Assembly (NCBI GenBank): GCA_947090545.1
Contig: CAMUPC010000015.1
Location: 1-35,333, forward strand
Origin: an uncultured Eubacterium sp.
GTDB lineage: Bacteria > Bacillota > Clostridia > Lachnospirales > Lachnospiraceae
Length of the DNA stretch: 35,333 bases
Direction: 5' to 3'
In this document: positions 18,342-30,933 of the stretch, one piece after another
Numbering within the stretch: position 1 is the stretch's first letter
Layout: the number at the start of each line of letters is the position of its first letter
Position numbers and translations under genes: made by a program
Notes under the pieces: generated by a model
What the model saw: only the letters and a program-made list of their open reading frames with translations
Told to the model about the DNA's origin: nothing
Databases searched by the model: none

Positions 18342-19424
18342 ATGGTGATTACACAGACTCCGTTTCGGATTTCATTTTTTGGCGGAGGAACAGATTTTGC
18401 AGAGTTTTATAGAGAACATGGGGGCAGCGTAATATCGACTACGTTTGACAAGTACTGTTATGTGACAGCCTCTCATCTTCCAAGATTTTTTGAGCATAAA
18501 AATTCTATTGTATACAGCAGGATCGAAAAAACAAACAGCGTGGAGGAGATCAGGCATCCTGCGGTACGAAATGCGATGAAATATTTAGATATGCATGAAT
18601 TAAGGCTTACTTATGATGCTGATCTGCCCGCGAGGTCGGGGCTTGGGACGAGCAGTTCTTTTGCAGTTGGTATGCTGAACGCATTTTATGCGATGAAGGG
18701 CAAACAGGTAGACAAGCATAAGCTGGCGGATGATGCCATTTATCTTGAGAGGACTTTGTGTCATGAAAGCGGAGGGATACAAGATCAAATCGCAGCTTCT
18801 TATGGCGGACTGAACCGGATTGACATGGATGCTGGAGGGTATACGGTAAAACCGGTTATTATTCCAAGAGAACGCAAACAAGATCTTAATGATTGTTTCA
18901 TGTTATTTTTTACAGGGCTTTCGAGATTCTCCAGCGATATTGCAAAGTCGCAGGCAGCATCTGTGAAACATAAGACTGCGGATCTTTTGGAAATGCTGCA
19001 ATTGGTAGATGAAGCAGAAAGAATCTTAGTGTCCAAATCGAACTTGAATGAATTTGGACGGTTGTTAGATTATACATGGAAACTAAAACGTGGGATTACA
19101 GATGAGATATCCACACATGAGATTGACGTGATCTATGAAAAAGCATTACGAGCGGGTGCAGTTGGCGGAAAGCTGCTTGGAGCAGGAGGAGGCGGTTTTA
19201 TGCTGTTTTATGCAGAACCGGATAAGCAGCGGTGCGTGAAGGAAGCGCTGGAAGGAATGTTGTATGTGCCGTTTGCATTTGAGAATACTGGAGCCAGGAT
19301 CTTATATTATCAGGACGAATTTTTTGATATTCATGAGCTTAGAAAATGCGGGGGGGGGGGTATTTATGAAGATAAAAGCATTGATCACCGGAATTACCGG
19401 AATGGTAGGTTCACATTTATGTGA
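18342..19424 (+). CDS. hddA: D-glycero-D-manno-heptose 7-phosphate kinase (GHMP family)
   Basis: A 360-residue GHMP kinase. TPFRISFFGGGTDFAEFY at the N-terminus is the HddA signature; the ATP loop ARSGLGTSSS lies at 96-105 and KLLGAGGGGF at 277-286. HddA phosphorylates the anomeric position of heptose 7-phosphate. The family normally ends shortly after the FENTGARILYY segment (about residue 325). Here the frame runs through an 11-G tract (19350-19360) and then 59 bases into the next gene in a different frame, adding about 21 unusual residues. One more G would end the protein at a TGA overlapping the next ATG; one fewer would fuse it in frame to the dehydratase. Next gene in pathway terms is gmhA at 20408. 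Confidence 0.88.
   Translation: MVITQTPFRISFFGGGTDFAEFYREHGGSVISTTFDKYCYVTASHLPRFFEHKNSIVYSRIEKTNSVEEIRHPAVRNAMKYLDMHELRLTYDADLPARSGLGTSSSFAVGMLNAFYAMKGKQVDKHKLADDAIYLERTLCHESGGIQDQIAASYGGLNRIDMDAGGYTVKPVIIPRERKQDLNDCFMLFFTGLSRFSSDIAKSQAASVKHKTADLLEMLQLVDEAERILVSKSNLNEFGRLLDYTWKLKRGITDEISTHEIDVIYEKALRAGAVGGKLLGAGGGGFMLFYAEPDKQRCVKEALEGMLYVPFAFENTGARILYYQDEFFDIHELRKCGGGGIYEDKSIDHRNYRNGRFTFM
19350..19360 (+). repeat. G11 homopolymer at the hddA-dehydratase junction
   Basis: Eleven consecutive G on the coding strand, five bases (TATTT) before the ATG of the dehydratase gene. It is both the 3' coding region of hddA and the only possible Shine-Dalgarno sequence for the next gene (G run pairing to CCUCC with one G-U). 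Frame outcomes: G11 gives hddA running 59 bases into the next gene; G12 gives an ATGA stop-start overlap; G10 gives one fused open frame. Length is prone to slippage and to sequencing error. Confidence 0.9.
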
Positions 19425-20403
19425 TTTTCTTCTTGAGAATACAGATTGGGATATTTATGGTGTATGCAGGTGGCGCAGCCCGCTTGACAATGTCGGGCAT
19501 TTGTTACAGAGAGTGAATCAGAAGGACAGGGTTTATTTTGAATATGCAGATTTAAACGATCAGATTTCTTTGTTGACAGTGTTTGAGAAAGTGAGGCCGG
19601 ATTATATCTTTCACCTTGCAGCACAGAGTTATCCGCTGACCAGCTTTACTGCACCGATTGATACGTTAAATACAAATATATTGGGAACCTGTAGGCTGTT
19701 AGAAAGTATTAGGAATGTGATGGTATCGGAAAATGGTGGTTATCAGCCTTTGATTCACGTGTGCGCATCTTCGGAGGTTTTTGGAAAAATACCTGAGGAT
19801 AAAAAGCCGGACAAAGGAATCCATGAAGAATGCCCATTTCATCCAGCATCACCATATGCCGTATCAAAGGCTGGCACAGATTTGCTCGGACGTTATTATG
19901 CGCAGGCATATGGCATGAAGGTTATGACAACGAGGATGTTTACACATACAGGCCCAAGGAGAGGAGATGTATTTCACGAGTCTACCTTTGCCAAACAGAT
20001 TGCAATGATCGAAGCTGGCTTGATGCAGCCGGAGGTTCAGGTTGGAAATTTAAAATCTTTGCGCACGTATGCAGATGTACGTGACGCAGTGCGTGCATAT
20101 TATATGCTTGTAACGGTGAATCCAATTCCAGGCGAATATTATAATATCGGAGGTTCGTATACTTGCGAGGTTGGAGATACGCTGCATACGCTCCTTTCAA
20201 TGTCGCCAATCAAGGATACCATCAGGATTGTAGAAGATCCTGGCAGGCTAAGGCCTGTTGATGCAGACCTGCAAGTGCCGGATTGCAGAAAATTTAAAAT
20301 GCATACCGGATGGGAGCCTCAGATTTCCTATGAGAAAACGATGATGGATTTGCTCAACTACTGGAGAGAAAGGGTCAGAAAAGAGAATTTTCTGACACGG
20401 TAA
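19366..20403 (+). CDS. GDP-mannose 4,6-dehydratase-like enzyme, probably GDP-heptose 4,6-dehydratase (DmhA-like)
   Basis: A 345-residue extended SDR enzyme. It has TGITGMVGS near residue 8, an HLAAQSYP segment near 85, the catalytic CASSEVFG (S/E) near 128, and YAVSK (YxxxK) near 165, with TRMFTHTGPRRG and VGNLKSLRTYADVRD typical of GDP-mannose dehydratases. Between hddA and gmhA it most likely acts on GDP-D-glycero-D-manno-heptose, as DmhA of Yersinia and Campylobacter does, giving a 4-keto-6-deoxy intermediate. GDP-mannose as substrate cannot be excluded. I chose ATG 19366; a longer frame from 19264 only reads through hddA out of frame. Its ribosome site is the G11 tract, so expression may depend on tract length or on coupling to hddA translation. 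Confidence 0.82.
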   Translation: MKIKALITGITGMVGSHLCDFLLENTDWDIYGVCRWRSPLDNVGHLLQRVNQKDRVYFEYADLNDQISLLTVFEKVRPDYIFHLAAQSYPLTSFTAPIDTLNTNILGTCRLLESIRNVMVSENGGYQPLIHVCASSEVFGKIPEDKKPDKGIHEECPFHPASPYAVSKAGTDLLGRYYAQAYGMKVMTTRMFTHTGPRRGDVFHESTFAKQIAMIEAGLMQPEVQVGNLKSLRTYADVRDAVRAYYMLVTVNPIPGEYYNIGGSYTCEVGDTLHTLLSMSPIKDTIRIVEDPGRLRPVDADLQVPDCRKFKMHTGWEPQISYEKTMMDLLNYWRERVRKENFLTR

Positions 20404-20407
20404 GGAA

Positions 20408-21046
20408 ATGAAAGCAGGTACAAAACAAATTTTTGATACATATTGTAATAAATATGATTTTATAGACACGATAAAAGGCAGTATCATCACAGCATTTGAA
20501 TGTTTAGTGGATAGTTTTTTGAATGGAAACAAGCTTTTAGTTTGCGGGAACGGGGGAAGTTGTTCGGATGCAGACCATATTGCAGGAGAACTGATGAAAG
20601 GGTTTCTTAGAAAACGGCAGTTAAAAAATGCAGATGCATTACTGGATTTTGGAGAGGAAGGAGAATATCTTTTAAAAAATCTACAGGGCGGGCTGCCAGT
20701 CGTCAATCTGGGGGCAAATATGTCTCTTGTGACAGCGGTTATGAATGATATGGATGGAAAACTGATCTTTGCCCAGCAGGTATATGCACTTGGCAAAAAA
20801 GGCGATGTTTTGCTTGGAATCAGCACATCAGGGAATTCCCTGGATGTATTGTACGCTGGAATGGCAGCAAAGATAATGGGAATAAAAGTGATCGGTTTAA
20901 CGGGACAACAAGGCGGGAAAATAGCAGGCTTGACAGAATGTGCAATGATGGCTCCATCTAATTGTACGCCGGATATCCAGAATATGCATACCGTTATTTA
21001 CCATTTGCTCTGTGCGGCGATTGAAAATGAATTTTGGGATATTTAA
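20408..21046 (+). CDS. gmhA: Sedoheptulose-7-phosphate isomerase
   Basis: A 212-residue SIS-domain protein with the GmhA pattern: LLVCGNGGSCSDADHIAGE near residues 43-61 (substrate and metal site), LGANMSLVTAVMNDM near 102, and ISTSGNSLDVL near 138. It converts sedoheptulose 7-phosphate into D-glycero-D-manno-heptose 7-phosphate, the first committed step of nucleotide-heptose synthesis. It begins four bases after the dehydratase stop; AAGGAAATG places the ribosome site very close to the start, which suggests coupling. Together with hddA and the fused guanylyltransferase/phosphatase at 290 it completes the four activities leading to GDP-heptose. Confidence 0.9.
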   Translation: MKAGTKQIFDTYCNKYDFIDTIKGSIITAFECLVDSFLNGNKLLVCGNGGSCSDADHIAGELMKGFLRKRQLKNADALLDFGEEGEYLLKNLQGGLPVVNLGANMSLVTAVMNDMDGKLIFAQQVYALGKKGDVLLGISTSGNSLDVLYAGMAAKIMGIKVIGLTGQQGGKIAGLTECAMMAPSNCTPDIQNMHTVIYHLLCAAIENEFWDI

Positions 21047-21074
21047 GAATGATATCGAGGGGAAAGGAAACGGG

Positions 21075-21434
21075 ATGATAAAGATCATAGAGCCCGATTT
21101 TATACATACGGATGAAAGAGGGAAGCTGGTGCAGATGGTTCATAGTGGGTGGAGTCAGGTAAATGTAATTACTTCAAAGGCGGATGCAGCCAGGGGAGGA
21201 CATTACCATAAGGTGAATCAGGAGTTATTTTATGTTGTAAACGGCAGATTTCGGGTAAGAGTGAGAAAAGAAGAAAAAGAAGAGGAGTATCTGTTTGCAG
21301 AAGGAGATATGTTTTTAATACCAGAATATGTCATTCATGATTTTTATTATGAGAAAGATACCGTTATTATAAGTATGTACAGTAGAGGCGTTATGCTAAG
21401 CGATGGGCAAATGGATTTATATGTCACAGATTGA
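21075..21434 (+). CDS. Cupin-fold sugar ketoisomerase/epimerase-like protein
   Basis: A 119-residue single-domain cupin. The core GGHYHKVNQELFYVVNGRF and the later GDMFLIPEYVIHDFYY contain the histidines expected of the fold. It resembles the WxcM/FdtA group (3,4-ketoisomerases) and small sugar 3-epimerases that act on 4-keto-6-deoxy nucleotide sugars. Set between GmhA and downstream transferases, it probably modifies the product of the dehydratase before reduction, like the epimerase step of the Campylobacter 6-deoxy-heptose pathway, although MlghB belongs to the RmlC family. ATG 21075 has AAAGGAAA upstream; an upstream frame from 21012 would overlap gmhA. Confidence 0.65.
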   Translation: MIKIIEPDFIHTDERGKLVQMVHSGWSQVNVITSKADAARGGHYHKVNQELFYVVNGRFRVRVRKEEKEEEYLFAEGDMFLIPEYVIHDFYYEKDTVIISMYSRGVMLSDGQMDLYVTD

Positions 21435-21481
21435 CCAGGCGTTGTCTCAACCAGGCATAGCAAGAAAGGAGGATGAGTGCA

Positions 21482-22294
21482 ATGCGTATGACAGAGGAAA
21501 TTCCTGTATATAAAGAGCAGATTTATTTTGATAAAAAGAACAAATACTGTCTGTTAATCCCTTTGTATAATGAAAAAGAACGATACCGCAGACAGGTGAA
21601 GCATATGCAGAGGGGAAATGTTTTTAAGAAAGTAGATGTAGTGATCTGTGACGGAAATTCCAATGACGGATTGACAGACGGAGATTTTTTGCGCAGCAGC
21701 GGACACAGGGCAGTTTTAGTTCGTAAAGGAAAAGGCAGATATTCTACTGATTTGCAAATGGGGTATGCTTGGGCATTGTCACAAGGATATGAAGGAATGA
21801 TCTCTGTAGACGGTAATAATAAGGACGATGTTTCTAATGGAATCGATTTATTTATATCTAAGCTGGAAGAAGGATATGGTTATGTGCAGGGATCAAGATT
21901 TATAAAAGGCGGAAGGGGAATACGAACACCTTTGAGCCGGTATTTGGCAATGAAGCTGATTACACAGCCAGTGATGACATATTGTGCAGGCTTTAAACTG
22001 ACGGATACGGCAAATGGATTTAAGGCATATTCCAGAGAATTTTTGCAGGATCAGGATGTGCAGCCTTTTCGTAATATCTTTTATGGATATGAGCTGATTT
22101 ATTATCTGCCTGTAAAAGCCTGCCGTTTAGGTTATAAGGTTACAGAAGTACCTGTTACAAGAATTTATCCTAAAAACGGCGAGGTGCCGACAAAGGTAGG
22201 AGGGATGAAAGGGAATCTGTATATACTGAGTATCTTATGGAAGATGATATGGAAAAGATATGAACCAATAAAGAAAATAGGAAAGGCTAAATAA
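21482..22294 (+). CDS. GT2-family glycosyltransferase, polyprenyl-phosphate sugar synthase-like
   Basis: A 270-residue GT-A enzyme. LIPLYNEKE near residue 27 starts the fold, VICDGNSNDG near 55 and ISVDGNNKDD near 105 are the acidic donor-binding motifs, and QGSRFIKGGRG near 138 and TDTANGFKAYSREF near 175 match dolichyl-phosphate mannose synthase (DPM1)-like proteins. Such enzymes charge a polyprenyl phosphate with a sugar on the inside; GT-C enzymes use it outside. Two GT-C-like genes in this locus make that role attractive. There is no clear C-terminal membrane domain. ATG 21482 follows AGGAGG by nine bases; ATG 21473 touches the same site and is less likely. Confidence 0.75.
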   Translation: MRMTEEIPVYKEQIYFDKKNKYCLLIPLYNEKERYRRQVKHMQRGNVFKKVDVVICDGNSNDGLTDGDFLRSSGHRAVLVRKGKGRYSTDLQMGYAWALSQGYEGMISVDGNNKDDVSNGIDLFISKLEEGYGYVQGSRFIKGGRGIRTPLSRYLAMKLITQPVMTYCAGFKLTDTANGFKAYSREFLQDQDVQPFRNIFYGYELIYYLPVKACRLGYKVTEVPVTRIYPKNGEVPTKVGGMKGNLYILSILWKMIWKRYEPIKKIGKAK

Positions 22295-22350
22295 GAAATC
22301 TGTATGGATGTATCCCAATGAAAGAGAGGAGCAGGAGGAAGGATCGGATC

Positions 22351-24168
22351 ATGATGAAAGAAAATAGGATCGGTCTATTGAAAATGACTGTTGCGGTTCT
22401 GTTAGGAATGTATTTTTCAATGATATTTACGAATATAATTTCACCTAAAGTACAAGTATTTATTGATACTGCAAAAGTTTCTTCGGATCAATCGGTACAA
22501 GTATTTATTTATGATCGGGAATACGAGACGATTGATCCAGATGAAAACGGGTATTATACCTATTCTGCTGAAATATATGGGAAACCATATGATTTGGTTT
22601 TTAAAATAAATGCTTCTGGCTTGGAGTGTTCCAAAATGCAAGGGGGGGGGTACTACGATGTTGAGAAAATATCCGATATTACATCGTATTCGCTGTATCA
22701 GGACGTATATTGTGTAAAGCTAAATGCGGCCAGCAAGTGGCATCTCGTTGTTTTTACTGTTTACAGTGTTCTGTTTAGTGTTCTTTTTTGGGGTATTCTA
22801 AAAAAAGAAATTTTTGCTGGCAAGCAGTATACGCATGTGCTGACTTATTCTCATACAGCATTTTTGCATATTGGATGGAAGCCGGTAATGGTTTCGATGA
22901 TTGCGGCATTGGCATCTCTTGCGGTTTATTATGGATGCGATTTGAACGTATTGTCGGAGACAATCATTCTTTATCAAAAGGGAATCGATTTTTATCAGAT
23001 GTTTGCAGCACTGAATGATTATAAACAGGCTGGGCTGCTGATGTGGCAGTATGACGGATCGATGTTTGCTGGTTATCATTTCGTATCTTATTTGATTTAC
23101 CCGTTTCTGCATTATTTTGATCCGCACCAGTACCATTGGATACAGGCAGCTTGTTATAAGCTTTTTCATATGGCATTATATAATCTGTTGGTTTTATCTG
23201 TCATCAGTTATCTTGCTGATCATGATTTTATATCGGAAAGTAAAATAAAAAAGGTATATTATTGGTCTGTATTTAATCCGCTCACATTTTATGTCGCGAT
23301 TTTATTTATACAGTTTGATATGCTGCCGGCTTATTGTATTACGCTAGGGGTTTTGCTGCTGAGCAAATTACAAAATAAGAAGAGATTGTCGGCTATGCTG
23401 CTGGCGTTTGGAATTTCCTGCAAAATGACAATGTTTTTACTGATTCCGCTGCTTGCATTTTTGATTGTGTTTGTAATGCTACAGCAAAGAAAGCAGATGA
23501 AGAAGCAGAAGCTGTGTTTTTTTGCAGTCTTATGTATGCTGCTGGCTGTTTTTTTGGTTCTTCCAAGGATATTAAGGACGCCGTTGTCTGCCGCTTTGGG
23601 GCATTTGGCTCAGGCGGAAAGGATTTGGTTTACAACCATTCCATATGCGCCGGAAGTATTTTTATTTGTGGCAGTTTTCGGGCTTGCGGTACTGCATATT
23701 TTTCATCTGTGCAGCGTACACCTTGGGATCAAAAAAGAGAGGATGATTCTGAATACTTTATATGGCATCGGTGCAGTTGTTTTGATCTTTTCTTTTGCGA
23801 CCTTGGCAACTCCTGCGTTTTTTCTTGAAACAATTCCGGCGTTTGTTCTTTTCTATGCGTCGGCTGAAGATGATTTCCAATCCTTTTGGTTTGGCATTTT
23901 GGGTATGATGATTGCGGCGAATATGATGTTTATGCCGGAAGGCGATATTACGGCTTCTTTGCTTTTTATAGGAAAGCAGCCTGTATTTACGTCTATTTGC
24001 AGGATGATGGAGCAGATGGGGCAGGGAGTCCGTTGGAATTCGTTGCTTCATACGATTTCATCATCTGCAATGTTTGCTTATGCAGTGATTTTTGCAAAAA
24101 AAGGAAAGCTGCTTTTGCAAAGTCATGAAAAAGAAAACGGAGAGGAGATGAAATCATGGATAAAATAA
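22351..24168 (+). CDS. GT-C-like membrane glycosyltransferase with in-frame G9 tract
   Basis: A 605-residue membrane protein. One N-terminal helix is followed by an extracytoplasmic segment of roughly 100 residues and then about ten hydrophobic segments. YWSVFNPLTFYVAILFIQFD near the middle matches the pattern of GT-C / GT87-like mannosyltransferases, as does the CKMTMFLLIPLLAF helix. It would transfer a lipid-linked sugar to the exported glycan. Codons 98-100 are GGG GGG GGG (22642-22650) in the extracytoplasmic segment; G10 would stop four codons later and G8 about 20 codons later. The present sequence is the full-length state. ATG 22351 has AAGGA seven bases upstream; a start at 22318 would add 11 residues but has no good site. 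Confidence 0.72.
   Translation: MMKENRIGLLKMTVAVLLGMYFSMIFTNIISPKVQVFIDTAKVSSDQSVQVFIYDREYETIDPDENGYYTYSAEIYGKPYDLVFKINASGLECSKMQGGGYYDVEKISDITSYSLYQDVYCVKLNAASKWHLVVFTVYSVLFSVLFWGILKKEIFAGKQYTHVLTYSHTAFLHIGWKPVMVSMIAALASLAVYYGCDLNVLSETIILYQKGIDFYQMFAALNDYKQAGLLMWQYDGSMFAGYHFVSYLIYPFLHYFDPHQYHWIQAACYKLFHMALYNLLVLSVISYLADHDFISESKIKKVYYWSVFNPLTFYVAILFIQFDMLPAYCITLGVLLLSKLQNKKRLSAMLLAFGISCKMTMFLLIPLLAFLIVFVMLQQRKQMKKQKLCFFAVLCMLLAVFLVLPRILRTPLSAALGHLAQAERIWFTTIPYAPEVFLFVAVFGLAVLHIFHLCSVHLGIKKERMILNTLYGIGAVVLIFSFATLATPAFFLETIPAFVLFYASAEDDFQSFWFGILGMMIAANMMFMPEGDITASLLFIGKQPVFTSICRMMEQMGQGVRWNSLLHTISSSAMFAYAVIFAKKGKLLLQSHEKENGEEMKSWIK
22642..22650 (+). repeat. G9 homopolymer in the GT-C gene
   Basis: Nine G on the coding strand forming three glycine codons (98-100). 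At nine the frame is open; eight or ten shift to an early stop. Typical size and placement of a slipped-strand contingency tract. Confidence 0.9.
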
Positions 24169-25019
24169 AAGCATGGTTAAAACTGCTCCGGGTTCGGCAT
24201 TATATCAAAAATGCATTCATCTTTTTTCCGTTATTTTTCAGCGGAAGATTTTATACTGTTCATATGGATTTGGTTCTTGCTGGGAGTATTGTTTTTTCCT
24301 TTGTTTCGTCGATCGTATATGTGGTCAACGATATCAATGATATAGAAAAAGACAGGGTACATCCGGTAAAATGCAGCCGGCCTCTGCCAGCGGGAGATTT
24401 GAGTATTCGTGAGGCGAAAGCCGCAATAGCAGTGCTTTTCATACTGACAGGCATTCTTTTTTGCTTATTTCATTTAGATTTGCTGTCTTTGTGCATTGTT
24501 TTGGGATATTTGCTTTTGAACCTGTTTTACAGCAAATATGCGAAAAATATTCCTGTTGTAGATGTATTGATCCTGGCGTCTGGTTATTTGCTAAGGGTAT
24601 TTTACGGAGCGGAACTGGCAGGGGTGAAGGTATCGGAATGGATGTATTTTACAGTACTTTTTGGAGCTTTGTTTATGGGGCTTGGAAAAAGGCGGGGAGA
24701 AACCAGATGTATAGATGGCGGGCATTCCAGAAAAGTATTGCAGTATTATAATGAACAATTTCTGGATAAAAATATGTATCTGTCTTTGGCAGTTACGATT
24801 GTATTTTATGCTTTGTGGTGTGTTTCAGAAGAGGTTTCTTCGATGTATCCGCAGATGATCTGGACTACGATTTTGGTATACGCAATCTGTATGAAATATA
24901 CGTTGATTTTGGAAAAAGGCTCGGATGGAGACCCGGTGTCAGTTCTTTTTGCAGACAAGGTGCTTTTAGGAATGGTTGCAGGGTTTGCGGTTATTATTTT
25001 ATGGATGATGTATGGATAA
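24156..25019 (+). CDS. UbiA-family prenyltransferase, polyprenyl-phosphate phosphoribosyltransferase-like
   Basis: A 287-residue membrane protein with about eight hydrophobic helices. VNDINDIEKDRVHP near 57 is the first aspartate-rich motif, followed by the SRPLPAGDLS landmark. These features, and the start LLRVRHYIKNAFIFFPLFF, match the decaprenyl-phosphate phosphoribosyltransferase (Rv3806c-like) branch of UbiA rather than quinone enzymes. That branch makes polyprenyl-phosphoryl-5-phosphoribose from PRPP, a donor precursor of ribofuranose or arabinofuranose. In this locus it would supply a pentofuranosyl lipid donor. It overlaps the GT-C gene by 13 bases. The phosphatase needed to remove phosphate 5 was not recognised nearby. 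Confidence 0.75.
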   Translation: MDKIKAWLKLLRVRHYIKNAFIFFPLFFSGRFYTVHMDLVLAGSIVFSFVSSIVYVVNDINDIEKDRVHPVKCSRPLPAGDLSIREAKAAIAVLFILTGILFCLFHLDLLSLCIVLGYLLLNLFYSKYAKNIPVVDVLILASGYLLRVFYGAELAGVKVSEWMYFTVLFGALFMGLGKRRGETRCIDGGHSRKVLQYYNEQFLDKNMYLSLAVTIVFYALWCVSEEVSSMYPQMIWTTILVYAICMKYTLILEKGSDGDPVSVLFADKVLLGMVAGFAVIILWMMYG

Positions 25020-25033
25020 AGGGGTGCAGGCGC

Positions 25034-26077
25034 GTGGATGAAAAGCTGAGGAAAAGAGATAAGAAAATTGACTTGTATCGGGGGATAGCTGCCATCGGAG
25101 TCGTTTCTATACATACGGCATTTTGGTCAGGTGAGAGCTATGTTCCGCAGTGGTTTCAGTCTTTGACACTATTGATCGATGTTCCGTATTTTTTCTTTAT
25201 TGCCGGAAAAAGTGCACGTTTCCATGAAGGATCGGTCGTCCAGACAGGCAGAAGCTTATATAAAATGTGGATCAAATGGATATTTGCGGTTTCGGTACTG
25301 GCAGTCGGCTGCTTTATTTTTAAGGGGGGGGGTATTACAGATTTCAGAGATTTGCTGCGGAATTTTTGGTTTCATGTGTCCTTTGAAGGGCTGCCTGTAA
25401 TTGGCGGTTCGATCTGGTTTATGCCGTATTATATTGTGGTTTCATTGGTAAACCAGGTGATGCTTGCTATCTTGCCATACAGCAGTGAAATGTTTGGAGA
25501 CGGTAAGAAATGGTATTGCGGGCTTATGTTGTTTGCTTTTTGCTGGACAGCAGCCGGACATGGATTTTTGGGAATGGATGCCTATTATTTATTTTATAGT
25601 TTTTACTGGATGCTTGGTATAATCAGCCCATCGCTACAGATTAAGCATTTAAAAAAATTAATGCAGATTCTTTTTCTTGTTTTGACAGGTTATTTATTAG
25701 CGGGGTATTATACAGATATTCCATATATGAATTTGCAGCAGGCTAAATTTCCTCCGCAACTGCCATATCTTTTTGCTTCTTTGATAGGGATTGCTTTCAC
25801 CGTTTATTTTGAAAGACATATAAAGAAACCGAATCCCTATGTTGTACATATCGGACAGAATGCGTTTTTCTATTATATAGCGCAAGGAGTTGGCAGCAGT
25901 ATGCTGTATCGGATTCTTCCAATGATCACGACGGATCTGTGGTTTGTTAAATGGGGAATTTCTTTTATAGCTAACCTGCTGATTACGGTTGTAACCGCGG
26001 AGTTTTTCGCTGCGGCTTATGGATGGCTTGAAAAATTTTGCAAGAAGGTTGTTTGGGTTGTCGTCAATAGAAATTAG
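25034..26077 (+). CDS. Acyltransferase 3 family membrane protein (O-acetyltransferase-like) with in-frame G9 tract
   Basis: A 347-residue membrane protein of the Acyl_transf_3 type. KIDLYRGIAAIGVVSIHTAF near residue 10 is the family's N-terminal motif with its histidine, and about ten hydrophobic helices follow. Members add acetyl or other acyl groups to surface glycans. Codons 97-100 contain nine G (25324-25332); one G more or less leads to a stop about 20-25 codons on. The present length is open. GTG 25034 was chosen as start, with AGGGG upstream and 14 bases after the UbiA stop; an ATG at 25001 lies inside the preceding gene without a ribosome site. Confidence 0.8.
   Translation: MDEKLRKRDKKIDLYRGIAAIGVVSIHTAFWSGESYVPQWFQSLTLLIDVPYFFFIAGKSARFHEGSVVQTGRSLYKMWIKWIFAVSVLAVGCFIFKGGGITDFRDLLRNFWFHVSFEGLPVIGGSIWFMPYYIVVSLVNQVMLAILPYSSEMFGDGKKWYCGLMLFAFCWTAAGHGFLGMDAYYLFYSFYWMLGIISPSLQIKHLKKLMQILFLVLTGYLLAGYYTDIPYMNLQQAKFPPQLPYLFASLIGIAFTVYFERHIKKPNPYVVHIGQNAFFYYIAQGVGSSMLYRILPMITTDLWFVKWGISFIANLLITVVTAEFFAAAYGWLEKFCKKVVWVVVNRN
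25324..25332 (+). repeat. G9 homopolymer in the acyltransferase gene
   Basis: Nine G on the coding strand spanning codons 97-100 (K-G-G-G). G10 leads to a TGA and G8 to a TAA within about 25 codons, so a single-base slip would remove most of the enzyme. Confidence 0.9.
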
Positions 26078-26094
26078 TTCGAGGGAAGGTTAGC

Positions 26095-27117
26095 ATGATT
26101 TGCAGGAAAAAAATATTCCATTGGCAGGTATTATGCCTGTTGGGTTATTTGTTGTTTTTAATTGCTTCTGCATGGAAAGGAAACAGAACGGTTATATACA
26201 GCACGGATATTTCAATGCATGGAGATCTGGATGACTTTTTTGATTTATCTGTGATTTCTTCTATTCAGGACATAGATTTGAAAGTCATTATAGATGGATT
26301 TGATTTACAAGAACAAAAAAGCGGGCTTACATCAGTTCGGCGATTTGATAAGATTCTTGAACGGACAAATGAGTATATGCTGGGATCTTTGCAGAAATTT
26401 TCTGGACAGGCAAATGGTTTTTGTCACAGCACGATCCTACAATGGCTTGAAAGCTCCGGGGGGGGGTGCGACATTATTACGGTCGGGAGTTTAAGAGATA
26501 TTGCAAAAGCATATTGTTCCGACCGGGAGCTGTTTTTGAAAAAAGTGAATAAAATATATGTATTCGCCGGAGATGCACAGGGGACGTATGTAGAAAATAA
26601 TGTCGCTTTGGATGAAGAGGCATTTTTGACAATTATGAATTCAGGATTGGATATATACTGGATTCCGTGCTTTGAAAACGGGTTGTGGACAACAGGCATG
26701 AATACTTCCTATTTTACAGTGCGGCACAGTGAGATTTTTCAAAAAGAGGATGGAGCGCTTCTCAGATGGTTTGTATATTATTTTCTGAGAGGGCCGGGAG
26801 ATTATCATAAATATGAGATGTCAAAAGATGACAGGGAAATGTTTATGGCAGATATAAGAAATATTTGGTGCGCGCCGATTTTTACGATTTTAGACGGCAG
26901 TATCGGGCAGTATCTAAAAAAGCTGAGTGCGCAAAAAGGAGAGCAGGTTCCTATGCCGTTTGAATTTATAGAAAAGCAGGTAGAATTTGGTTCAGGCGGC
27001 AGGGTTACGTATCAAAAAGGAAATTTGATCCATTGTTTTCATATTACGCAAAGGGATGCTTATGAAGAATTATGTAAATTTATTTTAAAAGAGATCGAAG
27101 GCAGTTTAATTTCATAA
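26095..27117 (+). CDS. Membrane-anchored nucleoside-hydrolase-superfamily protein with in-frame G9 tract
   Basis: A 340-residue protein. Residues about 9-25 are a hydrophobic anchor, so the rest is probably outside the membrane. IYSTDISMHGDLDDFFDLSV near 34-52 resembles the calcium-binding aspartate cluster of inosine-uridine nucleoside hydrolases (IunH), and VGSLRDIAK near 130 matches the NVALAL-like second site loosely. Canonical residues are spaced differently (TDIxxxGDLDD rather than DxDPGxDD), so catalysis is unproven. Family members cleave N-ribosides; next to a phosphoribosyltransferase-like UbiA gene it may act on ribofuranosyl residues or be a sugar-binding relative. Codons 122-124 are nine G (26458-26466); G8 or G10 both run to stops. 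Last gene of the long operon. Confidence 0.6.
   Translation: MICRKKIFHWQVLCLLGYLLFLIASAWKGNRTVIYSTDISMHGDLDDFFDLSVISSIQDIDLKVIIDGFDLQEQKSGLTSVRRFDKILERTNEYMLGSLQKFSGQANGFCHSTILQWLESSGGGCDIITVGSLRDIAKAYCSDRELFLKKVNKIYVFAGDAQGTYVENNVALDEEAFLTIMNSGLDIYWIPCFENGLWTTGMNTSYFTVRHSEIFQKEDGALLRWFVYYFLRGPGDYHKYEMSKDDREMFMADIRNIWCAPIFTILDGSIGQYLKKLSAQKGEQVPMPFEFIEKQVEFGSGGRVTYQKGNLIHCFHITQRDAYEELCKFILKEIEGSLIS
26458..26466 (+). repeat. G9 homopolymer in the nucleoside-hydrolase-like gene
   Basis: Nine G on the coding strand forming codons 122-124. With G8 the shifted frame stops after about nine further codons, with G10 after about 27. The current length is open. Confidence 0.9.
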
Positions 27118-30192: not shown

Positions 30193-30933
30193 ATGTTGGA
30201 TCAGAAAGACTTGGAAGCGTTTAGAGGAATTATGAAAGAAGAGATCGTAGAATCCGAAACAAGGATGAAGGGAACGATCAAAGAAGAAATGGCGGAATCG
30301 GAAACAAGGATGAAAGAAGAGATCGCGAAATCGGAAACGAGAATGAAAGAAGAGATCGCAAAATCGGAAACAAGGATGAAGGGAACGATCAAAGAAGAAA
30401 TGGCGGAATCCGAAACAAGGATGAAAGAAGAGATCGCGAAATCGGAAACAAGGATGAAGGGGACGATCAAAGAGGAAATCGCGGAATCGGAAACGAGAAT
30501 GAAAGAAGAGATCGCGAAATCGGAAACAAGAATGAAGGGAACGATCAAAGAGGAAATTGCGGAATCGGAAACGAGGATGAAGGGAACGATCAAAGAAGAA
30601 ATCGCGGAATCGGAAACGAGAATGAAAGAAGAGATCACGAAATCGGAAACAAGAATGAAAGAAACGATGCAAGAGACAATCGCGAAATCAGAAGCATCCA
30701 TGAAGGTAGTAATGAGAAAAGAGATTACAAGATCAGAAAATCTTATCTTGGACGAGATGGAGCGGACGAGAAATATTTTAGAAAATAAAATTACAAAAAT
30801 GCAGGAAAATATGGATGAATTAAAGCAGTATTATCATCTGGTGAAGCTGGAAAATGAAAATGCGAAAATGTTGTTTCAAATGATTGAGGATTTATCTAAG
30901 CGGGTTGTTAAATTAGAACAAAAGACAGCATAG
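30193..30933 (+). CDS. Coiled-coil repeat protein of 11- and 15-residue units
   Basis: A 246-residue, highly charged protein with no signal peptide or membrane helix. After a 14-residue head (MLDQKDLEAFRGIM), residues 15-155 are six 11-residue units (KEEIAKSETRM) and five 15-residue units (KGTIKEEIAESETRM) in mixed order, then two degenerate 15-residue units, then a non-repetitive helical tail ending in VVKLEQKTA. Eleven- and fifteen-residue periods (3.67 and 3.75 residues per turn) favour straight or right-handed coiled coils. Start ATG 30193 follows AAGGAGG by eight bases. It is monocistronic, with its own promoter, between the secreted protein and the por operon. I recognise no function. 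The near-identical repeats also create long open frames on the opposite strand that I regard as artefacts. Confidence 0.75.
   Translation: MLDQKDLEAFRGIMKEEIVESETRMKGTIKEEMAESETRMKEEIAKSETRMKEEIAKSETRMKGTIKEEMAESETRMKEEIAKSETRMKGTIKEEIAESETRMKEEIAKSETRMKGTIKEEIAESETRMKGTIKEEIAESETRMKEEITKSETRMKETMQETIAKSEASMKVVMRKEITRSENLILDEMERTRNILENKITKMQENMDELKQYYHLVKLENENAKMLFQMIEDLSKRVVKLEQKTA
30235..30657 (+). repeat. Tandem 33-bp and 45-bp repeats
   Basis: Eleven in-frame units in the order 33, 45, 33, 33, 45, 33, 45, 33, 45, 45, 33 bp. Units of each class are nearly identical at DNA level, differing mainly at third positions, so they are young or kept similar by recombination. The 45-bp unit equals the 33-bp unit plus a 12-bp insertion (G-T-I-K codons). 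Copy number is expected to vary between strains. Confidence 0.9.

Follow-up and report, generated by a model that had tools for sequence, protein, structure and literature searches.

Poly-G tracts of a surface-polysaccharide-like locus as part of a genus-wide set of candidate contingency tracts in Lachnospiraceae

Poly-G contingency loci are textbook elements in Campylobacter, Helicobacter and Neisseria. Here we describe four poly-G tracts on the forward strand of a 35,333-nucleotide (nt) stretch of DNA from an uncultured Eubacterium sp. of the family Lachnospiraceae (GenBank assembly GCA_947090545.1, contig CAMUPC010000015.1, positions 1 to 35,333; the whole stretch is referred to as the window), together with a much larger set of such tracts in the genome from which the window comes (the source genome) and in its genus. 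With a probability of roughly 0.85, we consider these to be slippage-prone contingency tracts, giving slipped-strand phase variation across the whole genome, for the most part in enzymes acting on surface glycans.

In Campylobacter jejuni, as described in the excerpted text of PMC8355987, tracts are centred on nine or ten Gs and lie in the coding frames of surface-glycan transferases, a minority being non-coding. The tracts described here are alike in these respects, and the slip-proneness of nine Gs is taken from the same Campylobacter excerpt. In contrast to C. jejuni, which according to that text is without functional mismatch repair, the source genome has intact MutS1 and MutL; its host group is the Lachnospiraceae, and an ON length of nine is shared by most of its tract genes. 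Stochastic switching of surface and signalling functions in gut anaerobes is likewise found with the invertible promoters of Clostridioides difficile and Bacteroides, but there it proceeds through DNA inversion by recombinases and not through homopolymer slippage (PMC11868660, in excerpt). Phase variation of a gut Clostridium in the excerpts of that review is DNA inversion, and the terms ‘Firmicutes’, ‘Gram-positive’ and ‘Lachnospir’ occur zero times in its main text. Among the open-access matches listed, judged by title and start of abstract and with subscription papers and preprints outside the set, none described phase variation by poly-G tracts in Lachnospiraceae. The proposed mechanism is of an already known kind, slipped-strand phase variation; the features that set the present case apart are the host group, the intact mismatch repair and a tract at the junction of a kinase and a dehydratase gene.

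Poly-G tracts in the window, the source genome and the genus

The four tracts of the window are given below, a run of n guanines being written Gn. Evidence for the three lying within genes comes from the products predicted at G7-G13, and for the fourth from predicted products and comparison with relatives.

19350-19360, + strand: G11 tract at the kinase–dehydratase junction
22642-22650, + strand: G9 tract in the gene of a 616-amino-acid (aa) membrane protein
25324-25332, + strand: G9 tract in an acyltransferase-3-like gene
26458-26466, + strand: G9 tract in a nucleoside-hydrolase-like gene

An initial annotation of the window had reported these tracts as its only G or C runs of seven or more; this holds at a stricter cut-off, the window containing no further G or C run of at least six. 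It had also put the G content at about 23%, where the measured value is 26.9% of the + strand, and had judged the tracts to be far from chance, which both kinds of shuffling confirm. Shuffling codons within the open reading frames (ORFs) of the window gave an expectation of 0.15 runs of at least G9 per window, as compared with the four present, while dinucleotide shuffles gave 0.44 overlapping G9 words, as compared with six observed, a number that none of 100 shuffles reached. The tracts are therefore long runs, in or near genes and above chance, as expected of homopolymer contingency loci.

Tracts of this kind are not a peculiarity of the window locus. The source genome (4.42 Mb in 380 contigs) holds 87 runs of at least G9, 52 followed by T and 35 by A or C, and within it the window locus is not exceptional. 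The distribution of exact lengths (37 G7, 34 G8 and 58 G9, with repeat-linked runs counted in) peaks at nine and is not a decay with length. Between 3 and 113 runs of at least G9 are present in each of the 12 other genomes of the genus. Elsewhere in the family, 21 of 24 genomes have no more than three; in the rest of the order, two genomes have 93 (G053) and 19 (G040).

A run of at least eight Gs is found in 19 of 80 kinase-related loci. At least one tract is present in 20 of 24 named relatives (maximum 87), which were hand-picked from those 80 loci, in part for tracts in their loci. Among named strains with a related kinase locus, 1XD21-29 has 39 tracts, 1xD42-87 has 25 and Clostridium porci WCA-389-WT-23D1 has 20, these strains being grouped here by that locus and not by established kinship to the genus. 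The observation is confirmed, and the initial annotation understated it: the window locus belongs to a set of poly-G tracts that extends through the genus.

Reading frame, gene classes and homologous tracts

The reading frame is the best evidence for slippage. The stretches fetched from the source genome covered 83 of the 87 tracts of at least G9 and 24 of the 34 G8 runs. Because 200 nt were required on either side, runs closer than that to the end of a stretch, tracts near contig ends among them, were removed, and 80 remained. Six of these, beside the palindromic repeat described below, were set aside, and 47 tracts were then called genic by a mechanical rule. Genic tracts of G9 were in frame in 22 of 26 cases, while just one of ten at G8 was in frame (eight being one base short) and two of eight at G10 (six being one base long). 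The difference between G9 and the G8 and G10 tracts taken together (3/18 in frame) is significant (Fisher p = 9e-6), and it holds at four sets of length thresholds, the strictest giving for example 12/15 versus 1/9, and when the second-frame condition is omitted. A change in run length thus moves the gene out of frame, G8 or G10 being off-frame in 15 of 18 cases. Under the same rule, G4-5 runs from a 200-kb background sample were in frame in 293 of 327 cases.

A similar pattern was observed in stretches of three sister genomes (G003, G004 and G007) selected for holding tracts, where 46 of 64 tracts were genic and 29 of 37 were in frame at G9, as compared with one of six at G10. The nine-G register recurs in 37/47 genic tracts of the source genome and 35/46 of the sisters. 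Directly after the genic tracts of the source genome there is a stop triplet in 21 of 47 cases and TA in 35. All three codon phases occur among its 25 in-frame genic tracts (10, 10 and 5), which are therefore not simply a Gly-Gly-Gly feature of the proteins; such a motif is ruled out as their cause.

Gene content was assessed with Pfam (E up to 1e-5) in 47 hand-picked tract genes of the source genome with runs of at least G9, which are not the same 47 as in the frame test; for genes out of frame one piece was used, mostly the longer. The sister set also comprised 47 genes (48 minus one identical copy), and the control 120 ORFs out of 164, those above 900 aa being skipped, from 20 hand-chosen 10-kb stretches free of G9 tracts. 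Source-genome tract genes included 12 Methyltransf_11, four Glycos_transf_2 and three Acyl_transf_3, and those of the sisters seven Methyltransf_23, six Methyltransf_11, four each of Acyl_transf_3, Hexapep and TupA ATP-grasp, and two MBOAT. The control yielded seven Glycos_transf_1 and two Glycos_transf_2, and its families with at least two members included neither a methyltransferase family nor Acyl_transf_3, each of which thus accounts for at most one of the 120. S-adenosylmethionine-dependent methyltransferases are clearly enriched among tract genes (Methyltransf_11, 12/47 versus at most 1/120, Fisher p = 8e-7; Methyltransf_23 in the sisters, 7/47, p = 6e-4).

It is through these methyltransferases that the tracts are concentrated in surface or host-interaction genes. 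Judging from their neighbours and by analogy with Campylobacter, the enzymes would act on surface glycans. The initial annotation had named similar G runs in housekeeping genes throughout the genome as evidence against its proposal; runs are indeed common, yet methyltransferases, acyltransferases and glycosyltransferases prevail among the annotated tract genes, along with other genes for sugars or the surface. Those that fall outside this glycan-related pattern include two LytTR response regulators, a glyoxalase-like, a MaoC-like and a glycerophosphodiesterase-like protein, and one solute-binding protein. Of the two LytTR genes (contigs C39/L053 and C110/L064), one has its tract at the end and the other close to its start, so that switching may reach regulators.

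Comparison of homologous sites adds to the evidence. For thirteen tracts of the source genome the fetched stretches of G004 or G003 contain a homologous tract in the same position (each sister tract counted once, flanks 67.6-84.5% identical, some with further paralogues in the source genome), and the G count differs in nine of the 13. In the pair on contig C5 the count is equal and, by eye, there is a one-base difference just past the tract. Run length therefore varies at the same site between relatives, at tracts outside the window.

Some tracts lie outside genes. On contig C116 (L067) a G14 lies between TTGACA and TATACT, with a 21-nt spacer as assembled, and on contig C201 (L075) a G9 lies between TTGACA and TATAAT, with a 19-nt spacer as assembled (both counted by eye); each is upstream of a gene with a signal-peptide-like start. 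Phase variation through the spacer length of promoters, by poly-G or poly-C, is of the Neisseria type, and the likeness of these two tracts, both outside the window, is in their position between −35- and −10-like hexamers. The hexamers are consensus matches, and a possible promoter-spacer role is a lead only.

The source genome also has a palindromic interspersed repeat of about 260 bp (measured by eye), which starts GGGACGCTGG, ends near CCGGCTG and occurs at many contig ends (examples are L054:2415-2700, L060:2280-2560 and L204:2218-2500). Two variants of its outer arms exist, apparently changing in concert, and 8-12 Gs in a row are often found 0-25 nt upstream. An Rfam search of four stretches with this repeat gave no match.

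Slippage, its alternatives and mismatch repair

The tract set behaves like phase-variation tracts in frame and in gene content. A run of about nine Gs would gain or lose one of them during replication; for most coding tracts G9 would be the in-frame, ON state, and eight, ten or eleven Gs would lead to an early stop and an OFF state. Slippage within a clone would thus remove the protein when OFF, change the glycan and affect recognition by phage or the immune system. If the tracts switch, members of a common gut Gram-positive family would each vary dozens of genes at random, many of them surface-glycan genes, with a bearing on phage resistance, immunoglobulin A targeting and strain persistence, and a single genome per strain would misstate which glycan genes are expressed. 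The initial annotation had proposed slippage-driven phase variation of surface-glycan genes; frames, length differences between homologues and gene content all favour it. The eight surface states that it derived from the three genic tracts would presuppose independent switching.

The OFF genes could instead be sequencing or assembly errors of one G, in genes that are really at G9 and stable. Most OFF tracts have 8 or 10 Gs, as a one-base error on nine predicts, and the assembly is fragmented into its 380 contigs; errors would nevertheless leave unexplained the excess of G9, the bias to methyltransferases, the use of all codon phases, the spread through the genus and the tracts of G11-G14, and we regard this account as improbable. 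The tracts might also be neutral, a coding-strand mutational bias to G runs in genes that are dispensable and in some cases decaying. Such a bias would suit both the second tract set outside genes, adjoining the palindromic repeat, and the wide range of tract numbers (3-113) among genomes of the genus. It would not account for frames that are often open over long distances on both sides of the tract, for the skew in gene classes to methyltransferases or for a nine-G register common to many genes, and we find it distinctly improbable.

Programmed slippage of RNA polymerase or ribosomes, by which G8 and G10 genes would still yield some product of full length and the tract would tune its level instead of acting as a switch in DNA, is consistent with the frequent loss of frame while both halves remain open, and transcriptional slippage is described at A or T runs in the excerpted text of PMC3711429. 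The G count at the same site differs between species, however, which indicates indels in DNA, and the in-frame state, for which slippage is unneeded, is the modal one; we therefore consider programmed slippage highly unlikely.

Several observations weigh against slipped-strand phase variation of surface-glycan enzymes, the reading that we prefer. The lengths compared are those of the consensus of one assembly and of different species, not lengths within a clone, and in an assembly of this fragmentation consensus errors in G runs are possible. The nine-G register is not fitted by 10 of 47 genic tracts in the source genome and 11 of 46 in the sisters, which have either other ON lengths or wrong frame calls by the mechanical rule. 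Of the homologous pairs with unequal counts, one (contig C47) reflects, by eye, the replacement of a T by a G at the edge of the tract and not an indel. Glycosyltransferases are not clearly enriched among tract genes (Glycos_transf_2 4/47, with seven Glycos_transf_1 and two Glycos_transf_2 in the control), and the excess of Acyl_transf_3 (3/47 and 4/47 in the source and sister sets, at most 1/120 in the control) is suggestive only. No homologue of the window's three tract-bearing genes was found among the fetched loci (E up to 1e-5), nor of the 616-aa gene in the 12 other genomes of the genus, and consequently the lengths of these tracts cannot be compared.

Mismatch repair also bears on this reading. 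MutS1 (1038 bits) and MutL (559 bits) are both open in the source genome, on contig C18. Loss of mismatch repair is thereby ruled out as the cause of its tracts, and the lack of functional MutS/MutL that characterizes a Campylobacter-type phasome is not shared. With both proteins intact, slippage rates lower than those of Campylobacter are expected, a further point against this reading.

Both proteins score above their family cut-offs in 12 of the 13 genomes of the genus, the source genome included. The exception is G008, where a profile search found neither MutS1 nor MutL; this genome has 77 G7, 24 G8 and one G9, with many G7 and G8 runs within open frames and mixed ON lengths. Conceivably the genus has a phasome of Campylobacter scale with a set-point adjusted to mismatch repair, most genomes that possess MutS and MutL peaking at nine and G008 having seven to eight; if so, tract length would evolve in such a way that the switching rate stays steady. 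We regard this as doubtful. It rests on one species in which MutS1 and MutL were not found, and the gene that adjoins mutS in the sister G007, present in G000, G010 and G012, is missing from G008 as well, so that an assembly gap is possible. Moreover, G001 (38 versus 7), G003 (23 versus 12) and G012 (4 versus 1) have more G7 than G9 despite the presence of MutS, which argues against a simple link between MutS and tract length. In the six-contig assembly of G003, mutS and mutL are each in pieces (C1:1557145-1562967), through either real loss or indel errors.

The window locus and its kinase–dehydratase junction

The locus looks like a surface-polysaccharide cluster. The genes in question are as follows.

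290-1555, + strand: nucleotidyltransferase-like (sugar-1-phosphate) domain fused to an HAD-IIIA, GmhB-like phosphatase domain (NCBIfam profiles)
18342-19424, + strand: GHMP kinase, heptose-7-phosphate-kinase-like, 360 aa as assembled with G11 (Pfam, NCBIfam)
19366-20403, + strand: short-chain dehydrogenase/reductase of the GDP-mannose 4,6-dehydratase family (Pfam above curated cut-off; specific NCBIfam name below cut-off)
20408-21046, + strand: GmhA-like isomerase (under the NCBIfam cut-off)
21473: gene weakly like glycosyltransferase family 2 (profile match)
22318-24168, + strand: polytopic 616-aa protein with nine predicted membrane segments, like glycosyltransferases of the C type (GT-C) by topology only
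24156-25019, + strand: UbiA-family gene, decaprenyl-phosphate-phosphoribosyltransferase-like (Pfam above curated cut-off; NCBIfam below)
25034-26077, + strand: acyltransferase-3-like membrane protein (347 aa), with a probable GTG start at 25034, inside a longer ORF at 24815-26077
26095-27117, + strand: 340-aa protein, weakly similar to nucleoside hydrolases, with a single membrane segment near the N-terminus

A one-G change at any of the three genic tracts ends the predicted product at 115-152 aa. At 22642, G9 gives the 616-aa protein, and lengths between G7 and G13 that do not differ from it by a multiple of three give 114-133 aa; at 25324 the product is full length at G9 and meets a stop within about 25 codons past the tract at G8 or G10; and at 26458, G9 gives 340 aa, G8 132 aa and G10 152 aa. 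Truncated products of the second gene were counted from 24956, and from the GTG at 25034 they are 26 aa shorter. As assembled, all three tracts are in frame at G9, so that the GT-C-like, acyltransferase-like and anchored nucleoside-hydrolase-like proteins would all be ON.

That these three tracts lie inside genes, as the initial annotation had it, is correct; the names that it gave to the products (a GT-C enzyme, an acyltransferase and an anchored hydrolase-like protein) are weak assignments. The 616-aa protein matched no Pfam or NCBIfam family and nothing in a PDB search. The resemblance of the 25034-26077 product to acyltransferase family 3 is in an N-terminal motif, which we take to be characteristic of that family; no Pfam or NCBIfam family, PF01757 (acyltransferase family 3) included, matched it at E up to 5, and BLASTP against two acyltransferases of the source genome gave nothing significant. 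The 26095-27117 product scored 20 bits against the nucleoside hydrolase family PF01156 (IU_nuc_hydro), below the cut-off of 34.2. The UbiA-family gene at 24156 is without a tract; a paralogue 42% identical to it, on contig C3, has one of G12.

The initial annotation had placed its three genic tracts on genes for decoration of the glycan. Not every tract of the window falls on such a gene; that at 19350 sits at the coding junction of two sugar-nucleotide-type genes. It lies within the 3' end of the kinase ORF, five nt before the dehydratase ATG (19366). Products predicted at G9 are a kinase of 341 aa, whose TGA stop overlaps the dehydratase ATG, with the same stop at G12; at G10 kinase and dehydratase form a single ORF of 686 aa, with an in-frame fusion at G13 too; and at G8, or at G11 as assembled, the kinase is 18-19 residues longer and overlaps the dehydratase start. 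The tract may thus act as a three-state junction, coupled (G9/G12), fused (G10/G13) or overlapping (G8/G11), which would be an unusual switch between two proteins and one fusion protein. In C. jejuni, a tract at the 3' end in the cj0045/cj0044 pair may similarly act on the downstream gene, according to the excerpted text of PMC8355987.

The nearest named loci by kinase gene are mostly from Lachnospiraceae and other Clostridia, with some from Treponema and Selenomonas, at no more than 71% identity. Nine relatives were inspected. L171 and L092 have no tract at the junction; in the place of the G11 tract, their dehydratase start is preceded by the stop codon of the kinase and by a GGAGG or AAGGAG resembling a Shine-Dalgarno site. 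L138 and L093 have the same arrangement, and the remaining five differ, the kinase being followed by a different gene in four. Other parts of the L171 locus carry G runs.

Heptoses occur in C. jejuni capsules. The HddA-, GmhA- and GmhB-like genes of the window would be a further likeness to that system, at scores that fall short, in part by far, of the NCBIfam cut-offs specific for heptose genes; for the kinase at 18342 the Pfam match is above the curated cut-off, and the heptose-7-phosphate-kinase name of NCBIfam is far below its own.

An Rfam search of the window gave no match. Away from the tracts, an ORF at 1667-2656 on the − strand has a sub-threshold match to a YhgA-like putative transposase family, and an ORF at 30193-30933 consists of near-identical repeats of the KSETRMKEEIAE type, a coiled-coil-like tandem repeat.

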